A stretch of DNA of 33,715 nt from a virus. Each line of letters opens with the position of its first letter. Position 1 is the first letter of the stretch. Both the position numbers and the translations under genes were made by a program. The notes beneath the pieces were generated by a model. The model was not told the origin of the DNA and did no database searches. It saw only the letters and a list, made by a program, of their open reading frames with translations. The DNA is taken from the IMG/VR virus record IMGVR_UViG_3300006805_002624, positions 1-33,715 of that record; one strand, given 5' to 3'. Shown here in pieces: positions 8,781 to 31,507 of the stretch.

Positions 8781-8803
8781 CCCGGGAGTCTCTCAAGCAA
8801 TAC

Positions 8804-8831
8804 AGGAGCCCTTTGCGAGGGGGCTCCTTTT
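8804..8831 (+). terminator. rho-independent terminator after coat gene
   Basis: Perfect stem AGGAGCCC (8804-8811) with GGGCTCCT (8821-8828), nine-base loop, followed by T-rich sequence. It separates the head operon from the modification island. Confidence 0.88.
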
Positions 8832-8834
8832 GCT

Positions 8835-8864
8835 TTATCCACAGGTGTAAAAGCCTGTGGATAA
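8835..8864. promoter_or_regulatory. inverted pair of DnaA boxes / operator palindrome
   Basis: TTATCCACAGG (8835-8845) and its exact reverse complement CCTGTGGATAA (8854-8864), separated by eight bases. Each arm contains a perfect TTATCCACA DnaA box. It lies about 30 bases upstream of the -10 element of the next transcript, a position suited to a DnaA-responsive operator. Confidence 0.65.
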
Positions 8865-8896
8865 CCATTTCCACCATGTGACGAATATGGTTGTGG

Positions 8897-8902
8897 TATG
8901 CT
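8897..8902 (+). promoter_or_regulatory. possible -10 element for the modification island
   Basis: TATGCT at 8897-8902, seven bases before ATG 8910. The same hexamer is the -10 of the promoter at 32006-32034. No clear -35 is present. Confidence 0.4.
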
Positions 8903-8909
8903 TAATTCC

Positions 8910-12314: not shown

Positions 12315-12534
12315 CCCAAAGCATAAGGAAAATAACAGCTCCATTTTCAATGGGGTAGCTTACCAATTTGAGACAGGGAACAACTGCGGCATTAAGTTTA
12401 TCCCGGATAAGCAAGAGATGCAGCGGCGTTATTACGCCGGCCAATTACGCAAAATAATGCCAGGTATAATATTCAGTAATTTAAGGAGCAAGTATGAATC
12501 CAGTCGGCACCCACGTCCTAGTAGAACTGATTGA
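12301..12534 (+). CDS. possible small hypothetical protein
   Basis: Open frame of 77 residues (MGWFSPKHKENNSS at the start) filling the otherwise empty 180 bases between the third glycosyltransferase and the GroES-like gene. It overlaps the former by 14 bases and the latter by 41. No ribosome binding site is visible, so it would depend on coupling to the upstream stop. The middle has IFNGVAYQFETG and a basic helical part. No family is recognised. A CGGCGT-TATT-ACGCCG hairpin (12424-12439) and the TATAAT promoter lie inside it, which argues somewhat against a coding role. Confidence 0.3.
   Translation: MGWFSPKHKENNSSIFNGVAYQFETGNNCGIKFIPDKQEMQRRYYAGQLRKIMPGIIFSNLRSKYESSRHPRPSRTD
12465..12493 (+). 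promoter_or_regulatory. internal promoter for the GroES-like gene
   Basis: Consensus TATAAT at 12465-12470 and a ribosome binding site AAGGAG at 12483-12488, giving a short leader of about 17 bases. No good -35 is seen. It would raise co-chaperonin expression above that of the rest of the island. Confidence 0.55.
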
Positions 12535-12790
12535 CCGAGCCGAACAGTACGCGGCCGATTTAAAGAAGCGATCCGGCCTTTTGATGCCGACTAAGATCGT
12601 TCATGGTATGCCCGATCGCGGCATCGTTTATGGCATCGGTGATGAGATCGAGAACCCGGAGATCGCTATTGGTGACATGGTAATATTTACTCATCAGGAG
12701 CATTTCCAGGGCTTCGAACATGAGGGCAAAAAGCTTGGCGCGATACCTTACAAAGACATTAGGGGCATAATAACGGAGGATGAAGAATGA
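12494..12790 (+). CDS. GroES-like co-chaperonin
   Basis: Protein of 98 residues with the GroES beta-barrel pattern. VGTHVLVELIDR opens the barrel. A flexible loop (about residues 17-32) ends in SGLLMP, corresponding to the mobile loop that docks on GroEL. DRGIVYGIGDEI and IAIGDMVIFT follow, and IPYKDIRGII is the closing strand. Phages such as T4 (gp31) encode their own GroES-like protein to fold the coat protein with host GroEL, so a similar role here is likely but unproven. It has its own TATAAT and AAGGAG, and overlaps the methyltransferase by four bases. It is unusual to find it embedded among glycosyltransferases. Confidence 0.85.
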   Translation: MNPVGTHVLVELIDRAEQYAADLKKRSGLLMPTKIVHGMPDRGIVYGIGDEIENPEIAIGDMVIFTHQEHFQGFEHEGKKLGAIPYKDIRGIITEDEE

Positions 12791-13323: not shown

Positions 13324-14348
13324 CCGATTTTCACCATTCCAGTTTGCTTAGGGCGACCAATCTTTTGTTTGGTGATCGCCTCGGCATGGAGGTGTTCCGT
13401 CCGATTGGGATGGAGTGGTACGAGCATGGCTATTGGGCGCTTAACGATCAGCTCGATACAGCTAGGCAGTACTTAGAAGAAGCCTCGCAACCACTTGATA
13501 ACACGCCCAGGCTGAACGATCCGGCAAAAAAGACAGAGTTTGTTGAGGGTACATGTCGGATCATGGACCCGGGCAATTTAAGCTTTCATAGGGCTTGCAC
13601 ACTGGATTATTTCAAAGCAAACGAGTTCGACTACGTTATCGCCTCAATACCGCAGCATGTCCCCTTATTTAAGGCTCTGATCAAAGAATTCATGCCAAAC
13701 GCCAAGCTAATAATCCAAATGGGTAACAATTGGGACATCGAACAATATGCCGGCATGAACGTATTGGCCTCGATCGCACCCACGCTAACCAACGCTAATG
13801 CAGTTTTTTACCACCAGGAAATTGAGTCGGTATTTAAGCCTCGTGTTACGCACTCCAGCAAAAAGATCTATAGTTTTGTGAATATATTACAGAACACCGG
13901 CCAGGGGTGGAACGATTTTGAGGAGCTGGAAAAACTCTTGCCGGAGTACAGCTTCAAGTCTTATGGCGGCCAATGCCGTGACGGCAATATGAACGGTCCA
14001 TTGGAAATCGCTAATGCAATGCACGAAGCTGAATTTATCCTGCATAGCAAACCAGGCGGTGACGGTTTCGGTCATGTGATCTTTAGCGCCTACGCATGTG
14101 GCCGGCCGGTCATTGCGCGGCCGTCACAGTACAAAGGCCAGTTGGCCGAACAGTTATTAGTGCCCGGCACCTTTATCGACCTGGACAAGTACGGCCGTGG
14201 TGAAACTAAGAATATGATTCGTCGGATCACCTGTGACCCGGATATGCTTTTTCAGATGGGGAAGCGTGCCGGTGAGCGATTCGCGGAAGTGGTAGACTAT
14301 GAAAAGGAGGCCCTGGATGTTGCGGAATGGCTTAAAACTCTTAGGTGA
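13308..14348 (+). CDS. GT-B-like glycosyltransferase
   Basis: Probable glycosyltransferase of 346 residues from ATG 13308; the in-frame TTG at 13281 is a weaker choice. The N-terminal half contains DFHHSSLLRATNLLFGDRLG and FDYVIASIPQHVPLF. The middle, LIIQMGNNWDIEQYAG, ends the acceptor domain. The donor region is HSKPGGDGFGHVIFSAYACG at about residues 245-264. Here the usual Glu pair is replaced by Gly-rich and aromatic residues, so it is an atypical GT-B member. No ribosome binding site is visible and it overlaps the methyltransferase by 16 bases, implying coupling. It ends within a small membrane-protein gene (32-base overlap). Confidence 0.68.
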   Translation: MAKVLTDFHHSSLLRATNLLFGDRLGMEVFRPIGMEWYEHGYWALNDQLDTARQYLEEASQPLDNTPRLNDPAKKTEFVEGTCRIMDPGNLSFHRACTLDYFKANEFDYVIASIPQHVPLFKALIKEFMPNAKLIIQMGNNWDIEQYAGMNVLASIAPTLTNANAVFYHQEIESVFKPRVTHSSKKIYSFVNILQNTGQGWNDFEELEKLLPEYSFKSYGGQCRDGNMNGPLEIANAMHEAEFILHSKPGGDGFGHVIFSAYACGRPVIARPSQYKGQLAEQLLVPGTFIDLDKYGRGETKNMIRRITCDPDMLFQMGKRAGERFAEVVDYEKEALDVAEWLKTLR

Positions 14349-17151: not shown

Positions 17152-17406
17152 ATGGAAATTCCAGGCGCATCACCAATAACACCAAAACAATGGCAAAAAG
17201 TATTAAAGGCTCTATGTTATAGCTTTGGTTCTGGCTTTGCAGCCGGCTTCTCGTTAGCCGTGACAGGCGCACTTAGCGGCCTGGTAAACGGAGGTAGCTT
17301 GTCGGTCAATACAGCTCTCATCGTGGCTCTGGTGGCCGGTGGCCTAGTCGGCGCATTTAACAGTATTGCTGTGACCATCAAACAGCTATTTACACCCGGC
17401 GAATAG
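17152..17406 (+). CDS. holin
   Basis: Membrane pore protein of 84 residues. It has two hydrophobic stretches: SFGSGFAAGFSLAVTGALSGL (about 24-44) and ALIVALVAGGLVGAFNSIAV (about 55-74). The N terminus is polar and the C terminus short, the common two-span holin layout. GGAGG lies eight bases upstream. It directly follows the lysin, so together they form the standard lysis pair. The gene end contains TTTACA, which is the candidate -35 of the downstream RNA. Confidence 0.8.
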   Translation: MEIPGASPITPKQWQKVLKALCYSFGSGFAAGFSLAVTGALSGLVNGGSLSVNTALIVALVAGGLVGAFNSIAVTIKQLFTPGE

Positions 17407-17417
17407 TTTGTTACTTT
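17389..17417 (+). promoter_or_regulatory. possible promoter for the structured RNA
   Basis: TTTACA (17389-17394), exactly 17 bases, TACTTT (17412-17417). Start would be near 17424, right at the 5' arm of the first stem. Confidence 0.45.
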
Positions 17418-17423
17418 ATCCGG

Positions 17424-17569
17424 GTGCTCAGTCCAAATAGTGCAAGAACACACGTCATTCGCGGACGTGGCCCAGCTAAGCGGGTGCACTGGAGCTGGAG
17501 ATAATATCCTGCAAAAATCCAGCCTGAGCCAGGAATCAAAACCCGCCAATTCTGGAATGGCGGGTTTTT
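17424..17569 (+). ncRNA. candidate structured non-coding RNA (three-way junction)
   Basis: The gene-free stretch after the holin folds by eye into a three-way junction. P1 pairs GCTCAG (17426-17431) with CTGAGC (17524-17529). P2 pairs AGTGCA (17439-17444) with TGCACT (17485-17490) and contains P3, CACGTC (17451-17456) with GACGTG (17464-17469). P4 pairs GCTGGA (17494-17499) with TCCAGC (17518-17523) and lies directly against P1. A terminator hairpin ends it. It has no tRNA T-loop or CCA and no open frame. I recognise no known RNA family. Function is unknown; a regulatory or packaging-related RNA is possible. Confidence 0.5.
17538..17569 (+). terminator. rho-independent terminator
   Basis: Perfect 11-bp stem (17538-17548 with 17558-17568), nine-base loop and T-run. 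It ends the lysis operon and the candidate RNA, just before the leaderless promoter at 17580. Confidence 0.92.
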
Positions 17570-17579
17570 CTGTTTAGGC

Positions 17580-17591
17580 TATAATGAGCTT
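17580..17591 (+). promoter_or_regulatory. leaderless -10 element before the SGNH gene
   Basis: Perfect TATAAT (17580-17585), six bases GAGCTT, then ATG 17592. There is no Shine-Dalgarno sequence. A terminator lies directly upstream, so a promoter is required here. Confidence 0.75.
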
Positions 17592-19226
17592 ATGTCAAAC
17601 CCAGCAGCAGATTTTCCAGCAGCGGTGCATAGCCCTGTTGATACTACGGCCAACGCCACTAGCGCGCTTGGTGAAACTGGTCCCACTCACTCACAGGTAC
17701 ATGGAAAAACAGAATCAGAAATAGTTGCTATCCAGCAAAAGCTCGGGATCGGTGCAGCGCCGGCTAGTTCAGCGTCGGCTCGAGAAGTGCTTAGAGTTGA
17801 CGGCAGTGGAAACAGTGAATGGGCAGCCAACGATGAGAAGCCCCGGCCACTTGGATCGCGGGTTATTGGTTTGGGCGATTCAATTATGGCGGCCACAACG
17901 CCAAGTGGCCAGTTTGGTAGCGCGGGCCCCTACACTGATTCCCGGCCAAACTTTAATGCCTGGTTTAATCGAATGTGTTACGCAAACCCAAAGCGATTTT
18001 ATCGGCTCCGAAATGCTGGTATCGGCGGTGACGTTACTGGTGGTTATGGAAAAACCACCACTGTCGTTACAGCCGGATTAACTACCAGCGTTACTTATCG
18101 GGTCACTAAAGGCACCAAAATGTTTGGGGTGAATACCCTTTATATTGGCGCGCTGGACGGTACGAACGACACAAAGACGCCAAGCGGCCACGTAGATAAT
18201 GGCGATGGCACGTTTACTGTTAGCTGGTCTGGCACGATGGTAAACACCTGGCCGGCTGATTCAGATATCCGTTGGGGTATGCTCGGTCGCTTGCAAACAG
18301 ATGTTATTAACTGGAACCCGGAGGTTGTTTTTGTACACGGTGGTACAAACGATCTGAACAATTTAACCACCGCCCAAATCGTTTCAGCCCTCATGGACAT
18401 TGGAACCGACTTGCGAGCGGCCAATATCGAACCGATCTTTATGGAGCTCTTGCCGCGTTCCACGTATATGAGCCAAGTTGTTCAAGTAAACGACGCATTG
18501 CGCTATGCTTGTCGAACTTATGCCGGTGGGTCATTTCATCTAATCCCTATTTATGACGTTTTCGCCGGCTCAGATGGTATGTATTCTTCTGTTGCTTATA
18601 GTTCTGATGGCCTACACCCAAGTGCGCTTGGTAATAATATGATCGCGAATTTGGTTGTTGCGTATATGGAAAAATTGCCGATGCGCATTAGTGCTGTTCC
18701 AACATCTGCATACGATACTGATCCAGTGAACTTACTCCAAAATACTCACTTCTTAACTGGTTCAGCGGGCGGTGGTGGCACGATTCCGACAGGCTGGACG
18801 TACAATCCATTCTTTACGACTAACACCATCCCATCATTGCAAACACCGGGCCCACTAGACGCAATCAGGGGCAACTGGTTTAGGTGGCGCTGTACGGCAG
18901 CAACCGGGACCACATCGATCCGCAAAGCGCTCACATCACAGCCGGCAGTTGGTGATTTCTTTCGGATCTCAGCTCGAGTTAAAACTGTTGGGCTAACTGG
19001 CGGCATGACAGTCACGCTCCAATATCTCGATGGATCATTCAATAACAATCTGATTCATAACTTGGCAGAAAACACCGAAGTTACTTTGTTTACAACCACA
19101 GCAAGAGTAAGCTCGGCCAACAATAATATATTTGAGATTCTCGTTACACCAGTTGGCGGCACCGGCGATTTATATGTTGGTGAAGTCTTTGTGCAAAATT
19201 TGGGGCCATTAGGGAGGACGCCATGA
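17592..19226 (+). CDS. SGNH/GDSL esterase fused to a carbohydrate-binding-like domain
   Basis: Probable tail-associated esterase of 544 residues. Residues 1-80 are a low-complexity attachment region (SQVHGKTESEI is typical of fibre N termini). The SGNH core has GLGDSI (block I, Ser97), NAGIGGD (141-147), HGGTNDL (249-255) and DGLHPSALG (339-347) with Asp339 and His342. All four catalytic blocks are present. A beta-rich insert (about 155-225) interrupts blocks II and III. Residues 380-540 resemble a CBM4/9-like jelly roll (NLLQNTHFLTG, then beta strands). Such enzymes remove acetyl or other ester groups from surface glycans during adsorption. Transcription is probably leaderless from TATAAT six bases before ATG. 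Confidence 0.85.
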   Translation: MSNPAADFPAAVHSPVDTTANATSALGETGPTHSQVHGKTESEIVAIQQKLGIGAAPASSASAREVLRVDGSGNSEWAANDEKPRPLGSRVIGLGDSIMAATTPSGQFGSAGPYTDSRPNFNAWFNRMCYANPKRFYRLRNAGIGGDVTGGYGKTTTVVTAGLTTSVTYRVTKGTKMFGVNTLYIGALDGTNDTKTPSGHVDNGDGTFTVSWSGTMVNTWPADSDIRWGMLGRLQTDVINWNPEVVFVHGGTNDLNNLTTAQIVSALMDIGTDLRAANIEPIFMELLPRSTYMSQVVQVNDALRYACRTYAGGSFHLIPIYDVFAGSDGMYSSVAYSSDGLHPSALGNNMIANLVVAYMEKLPMRISAVPTSAYDTDPVNLLQNTHFLTGSAGGGGTIPTGWTYNPFFTTNTIPSLQTPGPLDAIRGNWFRWRCTAATGTTSIRKALTSQPAVGDFFRISARVKTVGLTGGMTVTLQYLDGSFNNNLIHNLAENTEVTLFTTTARVSSANNNIFEILVTPVGGTGDLYVGEVFVQNLGPLGRTP

Positions 19227-22031: not shown

Positions 22032-22043
22032 TAAACTGAGCAC
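22032..22043 (+). promoter_or_regulatory. leaderless -10 element
   Basis: TAAACT (22032-22037), six bases GAGCAC, ATG 22044. No Shine-Dalgarno sequence. Confidence 0.5.
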
Positions 22044-22226
22044 ATGAGTTGGTTCACTAAAACGAAAACGCCCTGGTATAACCGCTTACTCGGTGTGCTT
22101 GCCCTATGGGATAGTGATCGTTATCTGTGGGATGACCCAGTTGTCACCTGGGACCAGATATCTACCAACGGCGCGGCCGGCGATTGGCAAACCCCAAATT
22201 CGGGCAGTTGGTTTACTAAAAACTGA
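22044..22226 (+). CDS. small tryptophan-rich protein
   Basis: Hypothetical protein of 60 residues with seven Trp. It starts MSWFTKTKTPWYNR and ends GSWFTKN, so the SWFTK motif is present at both ends. The coding DNA shows the same as a direct repeat: 22047-22063 and 22206-22223 differ by one substitution and one extra A. No membrane segment or known domain. Transcription appears leaderless. The next leaderless gene starts 13 bases after its stop. Position between fibre and connector genes hints at a structural or assembly accessory, but this is unproven. Confidence 0.6.
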   Translation: MSWFTKTKTPWYNRLLGVLALWDSDRYLWDDPVVTWDQISTNGAAGDWQTPNSGSWFTKN

Positions 22227-22238
22227 TATACTCAGTTT
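22227..22238 (+). promoter_or_regulatory. leaderless -10 element
   Basis: TATACT (22227-22232), six bases CAGTTT, ATG 22239. No Shine-Dalgarno sequence. Confidence 0.55.
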
Positions 22239-22949
22239 ATGAGCCTAACAACTACTCCTCGAAACTATTTGACTATCGCAGAGTTGCAAATCCTGTCCAA
22301 CCTAACTGTCACCGATAATGACGAAGCCCTGCGCCAATTGGACCGTGCGGAAAAGGCAATTGACGATTATATCGGCTACCAATGCAAGAGTGTCGAACAA
22401 ATGGCGACCGGACAAGTCACCTCTGTAAATTCACTGAATGTTATCGATACTGGATCAGGTACTCCACTGGATGTTACGAATGGAACTTACGCCCGTTGTT
22501 TAATCGAAATCATCGGCGGTACTGGGGCTGGCCAGATCCGCTATATTGCGAGCTCCACAAGGTCCAGCAAGTCAGTTACGATTGTCGATGCCTGGGACAC
22601 TGCGCCCGATTCGACTTCGATTTATAAGATCTACCAATTAGCTAAATTCCCTCGTGGTTCAGACGTCAACAGCAACCGCGACGGCACTTCGATTTATAAG
22701 ACTATTCCGGAAGCTATTAAAAAGGCGGTTGCCGCTCAGATCGATTACTTTATCTCTAAGGGTGACGACTTCTTTACTGGCAATGATTCAAACGTCAATA
22801 GTGAACGGATTGGCAACTACTCTTATTCCCGAGGTGGCTCGGGTGCCGCTGCGTCTGTCGAATTAGTTTCGCCGAGGGTCCGATCGTTATTGGTTGGTTT
22901 TAAAAACTCTGGTGGCGAGCTAATTAACGACAATCCGACGACACTATGA
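22239..22949 (+). CDS. head-tail connector (adaptor) protein
   Basis: Protein of 236 residues resembling gp6/gp15-type adaptors that sit under the portal. YLTIAELQILSNLT followed by DNDEALRQLDRAEKAIDDYIGY (about 11-47) is the typical N-terminal helical bundle. A central beta insert (SLNVIDTGSGTPLDV through IYKIYQ, about 63-140) is extra compared with minimal adaptors. The second helical half has IPEAIKKAVAAQIDYFISKG. The C-terminal end (VSPRVRSLLVGFKN) is the usual adaptor tail. It is followed by a four-base overlap with the head closure gene. Transcription is probably leaderless from 22227. Confidence 0.78.
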   Translation: MSLTTTPRNYLTIAELQILSNLTVTDNDEALRQLDRAEKAIDDYIGYQCKSVEQMATGQVTSVNSLNVIDTGSGTPLDVTNGTYARCLIEIIGGTGAGQIRYIASSTRSSKSVTIVDAWDTAPDSTSIYKIYQLAKFPRGSDVNSNRDGTSIYKTIPEAIKKAVAAQIDYFISKGDDFFTGNDSNVNSERIGNYSYSRGGSGAAASVELVSPRVRSLLVGFKNSGGELINDNPTTL

Positions 22950-25216: not shown

Positions 25217-25551
25217 ACTTTGAGGATTGGCTTTATGGGGCCGTCGACTTGCTCGCCCACGAATACGGATGGAGCCTCCGGGATATTATGTTTAACACTT
25301 ATCCCGAGGACTTCTTTTTGCTGCAACGGCAAATCAAAATGCGTAAGATTGATGAGTATCTTATGGATATTGCCATTGTCGCAAATCCTCACCGTGAGGG
25401 CGATGATGCCAAAGAGTTTGTTGAGAACCTGATGAGCGAACGTCGCTGGTATCGAGGTGATGAAGACGCCGAAGCCGAGCTCGATACAGCGGCTTTCGAA
25501 CAATTCCGCAACACAATGCAAAATGAATCCAAATCAATCAAAGCTAAGTGA
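24812..25551 (+). CDS. tail assembly chaperone, -1 frameshift product (gpGT-like)
   Basis: Predicted frameshift protein of about 246 residues. The first 119 residues are shared with the short form up to the slippery A-AAA-AAA at 25162-25168. A -1 shift then continues for 127 residues (start TNGPKSKNPKTSSPRID) in the frame that is open from 25090. That frame contains a good T-domain-like sequence, DWLYGAVDLLAHEYGWSLRD, then FFLLQRQIKM. It would otherwise be an orphan with no start site before 25249. The slip site is followed by more A-rich sequence, but no clear stem-loop is seen. The shift direction (-1) matches the conserved rule in tailed phages. Frequency of shifting is unknown. Confidence 0.75.
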
Positions 25552-25563
25552 TAGAATAAGCTC
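25552..25563 (+). promoter_or_regulatory. leaderless -10 element before tape measure
   Basis: TAGAAT (25552-25557), six bases AAGCTC, ATG 25564. It begins at the last bases of the chaperone stop. No Shine-Dalgarno sequence. Confidence 0.6.
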
Positions 25564-27858
25564 ATGGCAGGATTCAACCTCGGCGATATTATCGTCACTA
25601 TTAAGGCTAAGACCGACGACTTACAGCGTGGCCTCGGTGAGGTGCAGGACATGGCCCAAAAAACCAAGTCATTCGGCGATAAGATGGGTAACGCCCTAGA
25701 GGGTGGATTAAATGCGAGCAAGAAGTTAGCGCTGGGGATCGGTGTGGCCGGCGCCGCAGCGACAGCGTTCGGAGTGGTTTCGGTTAAGGCCTTTTCCGAA
25801 TCCGAGGATATGATTGCGCAGACAAACGCTGTATTAAAGTCAACAGGTGGAATAGCCGGCGTCACTGCTCAAGAGGTGGAAAAGTTGGCCAGCGCTCTTG
25901 AAAAAACTACTAAGTTTTCTGATGAAGAAGTCCGCTCGGCCGAAAACCTATTGCTGACATTTACCTCTATTGGTAAGGACATTTTCCCGGAAGCCACCAA
26001 GACTGTGCTGGATATGAGCACTGCCCTGGGCCAGGACACCAAAAGCTCGGCGATCCAGCTCGGTAAAGCATTGCAGGATCCGATCGTTGGTGTGACGGCA
26101 CTACGCCGTGTTGGTGTGAACTTTAGCGAATCACAGCAGGAGGTAATTAAAAATCTGGTGGAAACCGGCCGCAAAGCCGAAGCCCAAAAACTGATCTTGA
26201 AAGAGTTGGGAACTGAATTTGGCGGATCGGCCGAAGCGGCCGGCGGCACGTTTGCCGGTGCATTAGCCAAGCTCAAGAACCAATTTAATAATGTCCAGGA
26301 GGCCATTGGTGGCTTCATCGCCAAAGCGGCAACGCCGTTTATTAATAAGCTGATGGACTGGTTCGATTCAGTCGGCGGCGTCGAGGGTGTTATGACCAAA
26401 TTGGGTGACGCTCTCAAAAAGATGCAGCCCTACATTCCTATGATCGCCGGCGCAATCGCGGGCCCGCTGGTTGTCGCGATGATCGCTTGGGCGGTTTCGG
26501 CCGCACCAATGTTGTTGTGGGCTACGGCCATCCTGGCTGTTGGTGCAGCCCTGGGCTTCTTATTTAACCTCCTAGCACAGAAGATGGGTGGATGGGGCGC
26601 TGTCCTCGAAAAGGTAAAGGGTGGCCTATCGGCTGTATGGCGCGGAATGCAACAGGCATTTAATTTCTTAAAGCCATCCCTCGAGGCATTGTTCAATACG
26701 ATTATGACCCGGCTGTGGCCGGCACTGAAAAAGCTATTTGACCTCCTCACGCCGGCTCTATGGACCGCACTTAAAGTTATTGGCGCAATCATTGGAGGGG
26801 TGATTCTCGTCTACCTATGGCTATTTATTAACGGTCTGAACGTAGCAATTAGCGTTATATCGTGGCTCGGCAGCACCGCAGTGAGTATTTTCCTCGGCAT
26901 TAAGAACGCCGCGGTTGATCTATGGCATGTCATGGTGGCTGTTTGGCAAGCAATTTTCAACGTCGTTTCGACTGTCTTTAGCGCCATTTGGACGGTTATC
27001 TCAACATATTGGAATATGATTATGGCCGTGGTTACGTTCTTTTATAACTATTACAAATTCGTTTTTGATACCCTTTACGCAATTGCCGTTTATGTTTGGC
27101 AGGCCATTTACGGTGTGGCCATTAAGCCGATCATCGACTGGATCGTCGGCAGCATCATGTGGTTAAGGGACGTGATTGTCGGAGTTTGGCAAGCCATTTG
27201 GGGCGTTGCCGGACCGATCTTTGGCGCCATAGGTAGTGCGGCAGTCGGGGCGTGGAACTGGATCGTGAGTGTCTGGCAAGGTGCGGCCGGCTGGTTCCGC
27301 GGTGTGTTTGGCTCGATTGAGGGCATTGCCAGATCAGTAGCCAACGCGATCGGCGGGTGGTTTAACGGCGCGTGGGAAAGCATGAAAGGTGGATTTAAAT
27401 CTGCCGTCAACTGGATTATTGACACCGCTAACCGGCTGATCAGTGGCTATAACAATACCGTCGGCAAGATCCCAGGCACGCCACACGTTGCCAATATCGG
27501 CCGCTTTGCCCGCGGTACTGAGAACTTTGCCGGCGGCGGCGCGATCGTTGGTGAGGAGGGAGCCGAGCTCGGTTTATTCCCATCTGGTACAAAGATCATT
27601 CCACACAATATGACTGCTAACTTAGTCGATAACCTGATGAATGTTGGCGATATGCTACGCTCGTTCTTGAGCGGTGGCATGGGTAACTTTATGTCACCAA
27701 GCCAGCTAGCGCCTCAAGGAGCCGGCAGTAAGCAAATTACTAGCAGTACGAATATTTACGGTGACATCCATATCGGCTCACAGGCTGATGCTGATTATCT
27801 GCTCAAGAGGTTGGATCGTGATTTTGAGCTAGAGGGAATGGGGGTCGCAGTATTATGA
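25564..27858 (+). CDS. tape measure protein
   Basis: Tail-length ruler of 764 residues. N terminus: LGDIIVTIKAKTDDLQRGLGEV, helical and typical. Residues 85-260 are the conserved tape-measure core (FTSIGKDIFPEATKTVLDMS; TALRRVGVNFSESQQE). Long hydrophobic segments lie at about 290-335 and 395-500, as in many membrane-inserting rulers. VWQ(A/G)-type repeats recur at about 460, 510, 541 and 570 (AVWQAIF, YVWQAIYG, VWQAIWG, VWQGAAG). The C-terminal region has the common FAGGGAIVGEEGAELGLFPSG motif. The length suggests a tail of roughly 110 nm using the usual rule of 0.15 nm per residue. Transcription is probably leaderless from TAGAAT. Confidence 0.93.
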   Translation: MAGFNLGDIIVTIKAKTDDLQRGLGEVQDMAQKTKSFGDKMGNALEGGLNASKKLALGIGVAGAAATAFGVVSVKAFSESEDMIAQTNAVLKSTGGIAGVTAQEVEKLASALEKTTKFSDEEVRSAENLLLTFTSIGKDIFPEATKTVLDMSTALGQDTKSSAIQLGKALQDPIVGVTALRRVGVNFSESQQEVIKNLVETGRKAEAQKLILKELGTEFGGSAEAAGGTFAGALAKLKNQFNNVQEAIGGFIAKAATPFINKLMDWFDSVGGVEGVMTKLGDALKKMQPYIPMIAGAIAGPLVVAMIAWAVSAAPMLLWATAILAVGAALGFLFNLLAQKMGGWGAVLEKVKGGLSAVWRGMQQAFNFLKPSLEALFNTIMTRLWPALKKLFDLLTPALWTALKVIGAIIGGVILVYLWLFINGLNVAISVISWLGSTAVSIFLGIKNAAVDLWHVMVAVWQAIFNVVSTVFSAIWTVISTYWNMIMAVVTFFYNYYKFVFDTLYAIAVYVWQAIYGVAIKPIIDWIVGSIMWLRDVIVGVWQAIWGVAGPIFGAIGSAAVGAWNWIVSVWQGAAGWFRGVFGSIEGIARSVANAIGGWFNGAWESMKGGFKSAVNWIIDTANRLISGYNNTVGKIPGTPHVANIGRFARGTENFAGGGAIVGEEGAELGLFPSGTKIIPHNMTANLVDNLMNVGDMLRSFLSGGMGNFMSPSQLAPQGAGSKQITSSTNIYGDIHIGSQADADYLLKRLDRDFELEGMGVAVL

Positions 27859-28630: not shown

Positions 28631-30907
28631 ATGTCATTGCAAAAAACCCACCGCTATGAAATATCACGAGCTGGCGTATTCTTAGGTGTCTTGCAAGACG
28701 TTACGTCTGATTTTACCTATAGCCAGCCGATTGCTTCAATTGGCACGCAGGTCATTATTTCAGTTGGACAAAGCGCCAACGTAATTACCAGGTCGGTCGA
28801 AGCTTTTACTGACGAGGCCGGCGATCCAATTACCGACGAAAGCGACAACCCGATTATCTCCGACGGCCAACCGAACACAATCGGCGACAGCAACGAAGAT
28901 AACCTAATTCGTAACCACAACACGATTAAAGTTATCGAGTTTTCTTCGTATCACCCCAACGGCGTTACTGTTTTTGAGGGCTATATATCCAAATGGAAAG
29001 CCGTTTTTGGCGGTGGCGACGATATCGAAATTACCTGCTTGAGTGAGGGCCAAGACACCCAAAACTTCTTAGTTCAAACTGGCGATTCGGCATATATTAC
29101 TCAAAGCGATAGCGTTGGTATGTATAACCGTTTCGGCAGCCCACCACACGACTTCCAGGAAACGGTTATACAGACTTTCACGATGCCCCTTACCAAAACC
29201 GTTTCGGCGATCACTGTGCAAATGTCTTGCGTCGAAACCGGCTATGTTTCCGTAATTATCCAGGAGCAGATTGGCGCGTCGCCGGATCTCGGGAACGACC
29301 CGACTGTGGCTTCGGGCACGGTGCTCGTAACACCCAAAGCCCAAGAGAATGTTAAAATTGGCCTCAACGCTTCGACTGATCTATCCACTGGCACAACCTA
29401 TTATTTCCGACTTAGTTTTAGCGGCAATGACTGGGCCTATGCCTACGGCAGCAGCTCAAACCCTTACGCCAACGGCACGCTTTGGCTGGCTTCGTTTAGT
29501 GGTACAACTTGGGGAGCACCAACACAATACTCCAGTTATGATATGTACTTCATTTTGTGGGAGTTTGGTGGCTCGCTCGTCGGTAGCTACACCAGTGAGG
29601 ACCCAACCTTTATGCTCACCAGCATTATGGAGGACTACGCAAATCGCGGCGGCCACATTCTAATCCCGCCCAGCCCGGTCGTTCCTTATCTTTCACAAAT
29701 TGCTCATGGTTCAACCGTGCCGTCCGGTTACTGGTCGTGCTCGTATGCGCAAATATTTACCCCTACGGCCGACACGCTTACGAACCTAATCCAACTTTAT
29801 TTAGGTGTGAGTAGTGGAAGCTGTCTTGTGGGTGTCGCGATTTATGAGGGTGATCCCTCCGGTGATGGTGTGACTGTTATCGGTGGTGTTGGGAATTATG
29901 ATAACAACGGCAGCAGCACGCTTATCGCAACAGCTACCCCTCAAACCATCACTAACACCACCGCTCAAGTAACTACTTTTGAAATTGCCACACCAGTCAC
30001 CTTACAAGCCGGCCACGATTATTTCTTACTATTATTCTTCAATCAGGGTGGGTTCGGTACCTTAAATATGTATGGTGCCGGTTCGTCTGATCTGCCAATC
30101 ACCGCAACAGGTGTTGGCCAACTTTATATTGCTCGTGCCACCTTTAACAACTCATCATTCAGCGCCACATATAGCACTTCAAACCCAGCACTATACTTTG
30201 GGCTGGCACACCTGGATCCAGTCCCCGATTCATTAGCGGCCGGCTACGCGGACACTGGGGTTTCAACCGACTATGACTTTAAATACCAAACCATTAAGCA
30301 GGCAATTGAGGCCATTGTAAGCCTCGCACCGGAAGATTGGTATTGGTATGTCGAACCGGCCGATTCAACGCTTTATTTCCAGCCTGTGAGCGCCACAGCG
30401 GATCATACGTTAGTTAAGGGTCGGCATATCAACCTACTAGAAATTGAGGCCACAAAAGAAAACATCGCCAACCGGGTTTACTTTACTGGCGGTCCGACGG
30501 CCGGCGTGAACACATTTGTTAAGTACGAAGACGCGGCCTCACTGGCTATAAACCGTGTTGGCTTAAAGCAACTCACCGATAACCACGTTACCGACGACGC
30601 CGTTGCCCTATTGATCGCACAGAACTACTCGGCCGCGCACAGCGCCGAGGAATACATAACGCCAGTGACGATTCTGGACCAAACGATCGATACCACGCTT
30701 TTCCATATTGGTGAGACTATTGGGTTTCAGGGATTTGGAAACTTTGTCGATGATCTAATTTTGCAAATTGTTGGCAAAACTCCACATAAAACAGGGGTTA
30801 CGCTATCACTGGGGGTATTACCTAAAAAGCCGTCCGGCAAGGTCGAAGAAATCCGCAAGGGTCTTACCGACGAACAAACGATTGATAACCCGGACACACC
30901 AACGTAG
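28631..30907 (+). CDS. tail-associated baseplate hub (Tal) with two inserted beta domains
   Basis: Protein of 758 residues. The first 160 and last 230 residues look like the two halves of a tail-hub protein: early YEISRAGVFLGVLQDVTS and KVIEFSSYHPNG; late DYDFKYQTIKQAIEAIVSLAPEDWYWYVEP and LLEIEATKENIANRVYF. Between them are two extra jelly-roll-like segments, about 170-320 (with ASTDLSTGTTYYFRLSF) and 350-528 (with PVTLQAGHDYFLLLFF), similar in pattern to each other. These probably bind surface glycans. No peptidase or lysozyme motif is seen. The ribosome binding site is weak; two bases separate it from Dit. Confidence 0.75.
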   Translation: MSLQKTHRYEISRAGVFLGVLQDVTSDFTYSQPIASIGTQVIISVGQSANVITRSVEAFTDEAGDPITDESDNPIISDGQPNTIGDSNEDNLIRNHNTIKVIEFSSYHPNGVTVFEGYISKWKAVFGGGDDIEITCLSEGQDTQNFLVQTGDSAYITQSDSVGMYNRFGSPPHDFQETVIQTFTMPLTKTVSAITVQMSCVETGYVSVIIQEQIGASPDLGNDPTVASGTVLVTPKAQENVKIGLNASTDLSTGTTYYFRLSFSGNDWAYAYGSSSNPYANGTLWLASFSGTTWGAPTQYSSYDMYFILWEFGGSLVGSYTSEDPTFMLTSIMEDYANRGGHILIPPSPVVPYLSQIAHGSTVPSGYWSCSYAQIFTPTADTLTNLIQLYLGVSSGSCLVGVAIYEGDPSGDGVTVIGGVGNYDNNGSSTLIATATPQTITNTTAQVTTFEIATPVTLQAGHDYFLLLFFNQGGFGTLNMYGAGSSDLPITATGVGQLYIARATFNNSSFSATYSTSNPALYFGLAHLDPVPDSLAAGYADTGVSTDYDFKYQTIKQAIEAIVSLAPEDWYWYVEPADSTLYFQPVSATADHTLVKGRHINLLEIEATKENIANRVYFTGGPTAGVNTFVKYEDAASLAINRVGLKQLTDNHVTDDAVALLIAQNYSAAHSAEEYITPVTILDQTIDTTLFHIGETIGFQGFGNFVDDLILQIVGKTPHKTGVTLSLGVLPKKPSGKVEEIRKGLTDEQTIDNPDTPT

Positions 30908-30916
30908 AATGAGCTT
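30882..30916 (+). promoter_or_regulatory. leaderless promoter with -35
   Basis: TTGATA (30882-30887), exactly 17 bases, TAGAAT (30905-30910), six bases GAGCTT, ATG 30917. It is the best of the leaderless set, with a full -35. Confidence 0.75.
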
Positions 30917-31507
30917 ATGACTAAAATATCCGGGCAGCCAAATAATACAAGTCCCGCCAGCGCGGACTATTTGCTCGGTAACGCCGCCTCCGGCCCAACA
31001 ACCAAACGATTCACTTTAGCAAATCTTATTACGTTCTTTTTTAATAATATTCCGGCCGGTGTAATTACTAACTCTAAACTGTCAACCACGACCGGCGAAC
31101 TCGGGGGCGCATGGAGTGACTGGACCCCAACTTGGACTATTCTTACTATTGGTGACGCCGTTCAGGCGTGCAAATATACTCGAATCGGCAATACGATTAT
31201 TGGCCGTATATCTGTTGTTCTGGGGAGCACAAGCGCTATGGGTACCGGAGTGCCGACCTTTACGCTACCTGTCCCTGCCGTTTCACAGGCAGCCGCTATG
31301 CCTTTCGGGCCACTGCGCATAAACGCCGGTTCGGCCAATGCTTGCGGCGGTATCATCCGATTTTCAGACACTACCCACGGCGACATCGTGCAGGCTTCGG
31401 CATCAGGTTCTAACGTACTAGAGGCTGGTTTTTCTTCTTCATCACCAGGAGCATGGGGCGCGGGTAAATCGATATACGGTACCTTTACTTACGAGGCGGC
31501 ACCATGA
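30917..31507 (+). CDS. tail fibre / receptor-binding-type protein
   Basis: Protein of 196 residues. The N-terminal half is helical and Ser/Thr-rich with a trimer-like linker (TKRFTLANLITFFF, GVITNSKLSTTTGE). The C-terminal half starts WSDWTPTWTILT, then YTRIGNTIIGRISVVLG, a common phage fibre beta-domain start (a W-x-x-W/T-P strand followed by YTxIGxxI). Such domains end tail fibres. It overlaps the next gene by four bases. Promoter at 30882-30910 is strong and close to consensus. Confidence 0.75.
   Translation: MTKISGQPNNTSPASADYLLGNAASGPTTKRFTLANLITFFFNNIPAGVITNSKLSTTTGELGGAWSDWTPTWTILTIGDAVQACKYTRIGNTIIGRISVVLGSTSAMGTGVPTFTLPVPAVSQAAAMPFGPLRINAGSANACGGIIRFSDTTHGDIVQASASGSNVLEAGFSSSSPGAWGAGKSIYGTFTYEAAP

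Follow-up and report, generated by a model that had tools for sequence, protein, structure and literature searches.

Covariation in related phages points to a structured, terminator-ended RNA beside the lysis genes of a phage that probably infects Patescibacteria

Does the short gap between the lysis genes and the tail genes of a phage genome encode an RNA of its own, and if so, how might that RNA act? The question is raised by the IMG/VR record IMGVR_UViG_3300006805_002624, which was analysed over its full length of 33,715 nt (positions 1-33,715, referred to as the window). The window is a tailed phage whose plausible genes all lie on the + strand. Genes for a gp3-like small terminase, a large terminase (522 aa, with relatives in tailed phages), an SPP1-type portal, a minor capsid protein, a scaffold and a P22-type coat protein are followed by glycosyltransferases and a methyltransferase, a GH25-LysM endolysin, an 84-aa holin-like ORF, the stretch of interest, an SGNH/fibre gene and tail genes. 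The holin-like small membrane protein (17152-17406, + strand) is named from its position after the endolysin and its hydrophobic sequence; it has no Pfam or PHROG match. The original prediction placed a non-coding RNA with a promoter, a three-way junction and a terminator in the gap that follows, and the gap is indeed intergenic, extending from 17407 to 17591 with the SGNH/fibre gene starting at 17592.

The phage probably infects one of the Patescibacteria, bacteria with tiny genomes, because a related 34-kb phage contig sits within a Patescibacteria genome, shares the gene order of the window and carries a terminase 52% identical to that of the window; the caveat to this assignment is a possible binning error in that genome. 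Several other features of the phage were recorded. A GroES-like (Cpn10) gene (12494-12790) lies amid the glycosyltransferase and methyltransferase genes, between the capsid and lysis genes, and has a 33% relative near 18974 of the related sequence L023. The coat gene is followed by an 11-bp terminator (8804-8828) within a fold (8793-8904, z about -6) that, allowing for composition, is the genome's most stable. In a 400-base gap at 1725-2125 there is a strong terminator (1745-1768), and the + strand shows no clear gene there. The phage also encodes a KH-domain RNA-binding protein of the KhpA/KhpB type (1452-1724, PF13083, E 3e-17). A link between this KhpA-like protein and the RNA was considered and rejected, since its gene was not found in the related contigs checked, including the examined part of the contig that bears the RNA homologue.

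The predicted fold occupies approximately 17420-17535 on the + strand and is closed by a very strong intrinsic terminator at 17538-17568. As originally predicted, the terminator ends at 17569: an 11-bp stem (17538-17548 with 17558-17568) runs into a stretch of U residues that reaches this position. Mutually compatible stems had also been proposed and are present in the fold, but the single three-way junction they were thought to form is replaced in the minimum free energy (MFE) structure by two nested three-way junctions. The closing helix P1 (GCUCAG/CUGAGC) joins 17426-17431 to 17524-17529. Inside it, P2 consists of two short blocks in the MFE fold (17432-17435 with 17490-17493, and 17440-17443 with 17486-17489), and the junction segment AAGAACA (17444-17450) leads to two hairpins, P3 (CACGUC/GACGUG, 17451-17456 with 17464-17469) and P4 (GCCC-A-GC/GC-GGGU, 17470-17476 with 17480-17485). 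The third hairpin, P5 (GCUGGA/UCCAGC, 17494-17499 with 17518-17523), carries the apical loop GAUAAUAUCCUGCAAAAA at 17500-17517. An inverted repeat, CACCCGG/CCGGGTG (17393-17399 and 17420-17426), spans the holin stop codon and would make a hairpin ahead of the RNA in a read-through transcript.

In terms of folding energy the core of this single sequence is ordinary and not beyond chance: its z score against shuffled sequence is -1.8, and 68 of 602 windows of this phage (~11%) are as extreme. The full stretch including the terminator reaches a z of -2.75, the cores of the two homologues described below score +0.3 and +1.2, and the complementary strand of this stretch gives a still more stable fold than the + strand. 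The proposed -35/-10 promoter, TTTACA and TACTTT separated by 17 bases, does not fare better, as it matches 8 of 12 positions and equally good sites occur at 3.9 per kb per strand in the window, which is the density expected by chance. On the evidence of the original prediction alone, the claim of an RNA would be weak. Both the ordinary core energy and the chance-level promoter match would suit a locus with no functional RNA at all, where the lysis genes simply end in a usual terminator and the stems ahead of it arose by chance. We nevertheless regard that explanation as very unlikely; it is contradicted by two homologues with 17 core pairs changed on both sides, a conserved loop, and a conserved place wherever this could be tested.

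The homologues were found with a covariance model, R1, built from the single window sequence and searched over 25 sources of related DNA (362 kb). Besides the window itself, the model recovered two diverged matches in related viral contigs, both with E below 1e-6, namely L036:1-132 (E 7e-7), which is cut at its 5' end by the start of the contig, and L027:14092-14252 (E 9e-7); the same search gave nothing else convincing. The second match belongs to contig IMGVR_UViG_3300033553_000177, which shares the gene order of the window and has a terminase 74% identical to the window's. When the terminator is removed from the single-sequence model, L036 still scores 27.1 bits and L027 scores 12.5 bits; the latter score is weak by itself, but the match stands by its gene position and the shared loop.

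A test for compensatory changes, the absence of which in homologues would have counted against the original prediction, could thus be run on three phages, and pairs that change on both sides and still pair number 17 in the core and 8 in the terminator. In the R1 alignment, which is partly fitted to structure so that its pair counts are inflated somewhat, 93% of cells are paired, and both sides change in 25 of the 46 pairs, including the 8 of the terminator. As a control, sliding the partner strand reduces the 17 of 35 two-sided core pairs to 0-3. P3 and P5 are paired in 100% of cells with changes on both sides in 4 of 6 and 5 of 6 pairs, respectively, P4 is paired in 88% of cells with three such pairs, P1 pairs vary on both sides, and the terminator stem, which each of the three phages keeps paired, has two-sided changes at 8 of its 11 pairs. 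P2 is partly supported, with two-sided changes in its inner block, and its outer block, paired in 67% of cells, is doubtful. In an alignment-free check anchored on the loop motif, the six bases on each side of the loop form perfect Watson-Crick pairs in all three phages, for which the probability of pairing by chance is about 0.0024 in each. The terminator is palindromic enough to work on the opposite strand too, and the alignment contains eight G-U cells compared to two A-C cells, which indicates that the + strand is the RNA strand. Conservation of unpaired bases is concentrated in the P5 loop (consensus GAUARU-NN-CCYGCRAAA), the most conserved unpaired part, and in the GAAYA of the junction segment, whose bases are the same in all three homologues. 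Because the homologues show this covariation, we judge the folded RNA in this phage to be real; the basis of that judgement is comparative and involves neither the promoter nor the fold energy.

The same comparison bears on whether the stretch might be coding sequence, either through readthrough of the holin stop or as a short GTG-started ORF (17440-17577) across the RNA. The frame in line with the holin does stay open to 17577 in the window, yet by estimate any given frame would stay open for 56 codons ~7% of the time, TAG serves as an ordinary stop in other genes, and the variation among the phages tracks base pairs, not codons. In L027 the holin frame is closed 13 codons past the holin, so readthrough is not conserved there and was rejected. 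A coding explanation in either form is, in our assessment, extremely improbable.

The place of the RNA is tied to the gene upstream rather than the gene downstream. In both phages where the upstream side is visible (the window and L027) the RNA follows the holin, the two holin-like proteins being 57-59% identical and each standing directly before the RNA in gene order. The gene that comes next differs in all three phages: it is the fibre/SGNH gene in the window, a head-tail connector gene in L027 and another protein in L036, where tail genes orthologous to those of the window then follow. In the window this next gene has its own promoter outside the RNA, TATAAT-gagctt-ATG at 17580-17594 on the + strand (GCTATAATGAGCTTATG), of which an identical copy follows the RNA in L027 (TATAATGAGCTTATG at 14262-14276); a promoter element similar to TATAATGAGCTTATG lies near 144-161 of L036. 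TAnAnT hexamers exactly six bases before ATG with no ribosome-binding site occur at five window genes (17580-17594, 22032-22046, 22224-22241, 25549-25566 and 30905-30919), and on account of this arrangement these appear to be leaderless late genes.

Genuine promoters of this phage group seem to resemble TGnTATAAT, judging from these hexamers and from the block TGCTATAAT, which is conserved ahead of the small terminase gene in five relatives. The weak extended -10-like element TGTTACTTT (TGtTACTTT, 17409-17417, + strand) is a weak match to that pattern and, as a possible promoter of the RNA, is a better candidate, itself a weak one, than the -35/-10 pair cited originally. A similar element, TGATAGTTT (TGaTAGTTT), stands at 14085 of L027 and precedes the RNA by almost the same distance, keeping this place beside the RNA although the holin lies about 240 nt away. 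A start at 17424, as first proposed, is weakly supported. The 240 bases between holin and RNA in L027 (13846-14085) contain further inverted repeats (GGGTGTC...GACACCC) and possibly a second structured element. Elsewhere in the genomes, a conserved element precedes the small terminase gene at 2052-2115 of the window, 3044 of L015, 7117 of L016, 7234 of L019 and in L023. Its extended -10 reads GTGCTATAATG in the relatives and GTGATACAATA in the window, a 34-base block is 82-88% conserved, and the element is probably a late promoter or packaging-site region.

We lean, somewhat beyond an even judgement, towards a separately terminated, structured phage-encoded small RNA (sRNA) that uses its exposed, conserved loop to make contact with another RNA or with a protein. 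Such an sRNA would be about 145-155 nt long, with its 5' end near 17415-17424 and its 3' end at 17569, set by the intrinsic terminator. It would arise either by transcription from the weak promoter just ahead of it or when the late lysis transcript is processed. Helices P1-P5, arranged in two nested three-way junctions, would act as a scaffold holding out a single-stranded loop of 18 nt whose sequence is nearly fixed. The loop and the GAAYA junction would be the working part, most likely pairing with a host RNA or binding a protein during infection; contact with another RNA or a protein is favoured because the loop is fixed in sequence and exposed. We infer that the RNA accumulates separately, acts in trans and uses the loop as its contact site. 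The complement of the loop was sought within the three phages, and the matches were no better than those of shuffled loops. A related reading is that the RNA acts via its own three-dimensional fold and not by antisense pairing, the fixed loop and the GAAYA junction binding, for example, host RNA polymerase, the ribosome, or a lysis or packaging protein; that it represents such a new class in Patescibacteria phages seems to us improbable.

The main rival to the sRNA is a cis-acting element at the 3' end of the endolysin-holin mRNA, which would protect against 3' exonucleases or provide a processing site and thereby set the holin dose and the timing of lysis in the manner of a retroregulator. 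The placement of the RNA after the holin and the weak promoter evidence agree with it, as does a relative (L003) with a similar endolysin and another holin, which has a plain terminator only. On the other hand, the RNA lies about 250 nt from the holin stop in L027, and simple stabilisers need neither a fixed 18-nt loop nor a GAAYA junction. We consider this element a substantial alternative, though on balance an unlikely one.

With a structured RNA adjoining a terminator and all genes of the genome pointing in one direction, the element could also be a nascent-RNA antiterminator or attenuator that gates the passage of polymerase into the tail genes, comparable to HK022 put or the EAR element of Bacillus. 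The put RNAs, likewise structured phage RNAs near terminators, do suppress intrinsic terminators, but they are about 70 nt long with two stem-loops and act on distant terminators (PMC9378689); the nested three-way junctions and the adjoining terminator found here are set apart by that description. Moreover, only 4 nt separate the fold from the start of the terminator, and no competing pairing that would free it exists within 6-14 kcal/mol. Neither the exclusive antiterminator nor the conserved downstream gene of a terminator-type riboswitch or attenuator was found. Since the downstream genes differ, a separate promoter serves the next gene in both the window and L027, and there is no antiterminator fold, control of the following gene by the RNA is unlikely, and gating of this kind is in our view quite improbable.

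Turning back to the sRNA, no known family accounts for it. In agreement with the original prediction, which recognised no known family and no tRNA features, no Rfam 15 family matches at the gathering threshold and searches for tRNA and tmRNA are negative; Rfam matches at E<=10 are partial and at chance level, mostly to the terminator. Comparison by blastn to phage and plasmid collections gave chance matches of 22-26 bases only. Neither the core model over 380 Patescibacteria genomes (with stricter filters) nor the full model over the class of the Patescibacteria genome that carries the related phage gave a match. A scan of viral contigs for the loop pattern returned the two homologues and nothing else, and a looser pattern gave 14 matches, with model support for these two only; 21 pattern matches in bacterial genomes, none backed by the models, were taken as chance. 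The part examined of a holin relative (L072) contains no such RNA, and more distant relatives (G005, G007 and G009) have no match to it. In the open-access literature no description of the RNA was found. The homologues with their two-sided changes and the Rfam search together support a phage RNA that is structured, ends in a terminator and has no counterpart in Rfam. It forms a new family, of three members with one cut at its 5' end, of an already known kind.

This adds a comparatively supported RNA family missing from Rfam, from phages of poorly studied and mostly uncultured bacteria. Because it lies next to the lysis genes, a role in timing or in taking over the host can be tested, and mutations can be aimed at a definite site, the fixed loop. 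Among known systems, the phi29 prohead RNA (pRNA) also comes from a phage, is of similar size and has a three-way junction; the RNA described here differs in that it has no Rfam match and belongs to a phage whose packaging genes appear to be a large terminase of the ordinary type and a gp3-like small one in place of a phi29 packaging ATPase. The lambda sib retroregulator is a folded element that closes the 3' end of its transcript. The L17 downstream element is a structured 3'-UTR element (PMC2864571). In contrast to both, our RNA has a fixed apical loop and can lie 250 nt from the upstream gene. The phage-encoded trans-acting sRNAs, including lambda PreS, VpdS of VP882, 24B_1 of phi24B and StxS, are likewise short RNAs that act on host or phage RNAs, an action we only infer here; those studied belong to phages of proteobacteria, and Hfq is required by several of them (PMC12197685). 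Compared to these, the RNA described here is more heavily folded, has no Rfam match and comes from a phage whose probable host belongs to the Patescibacteria.
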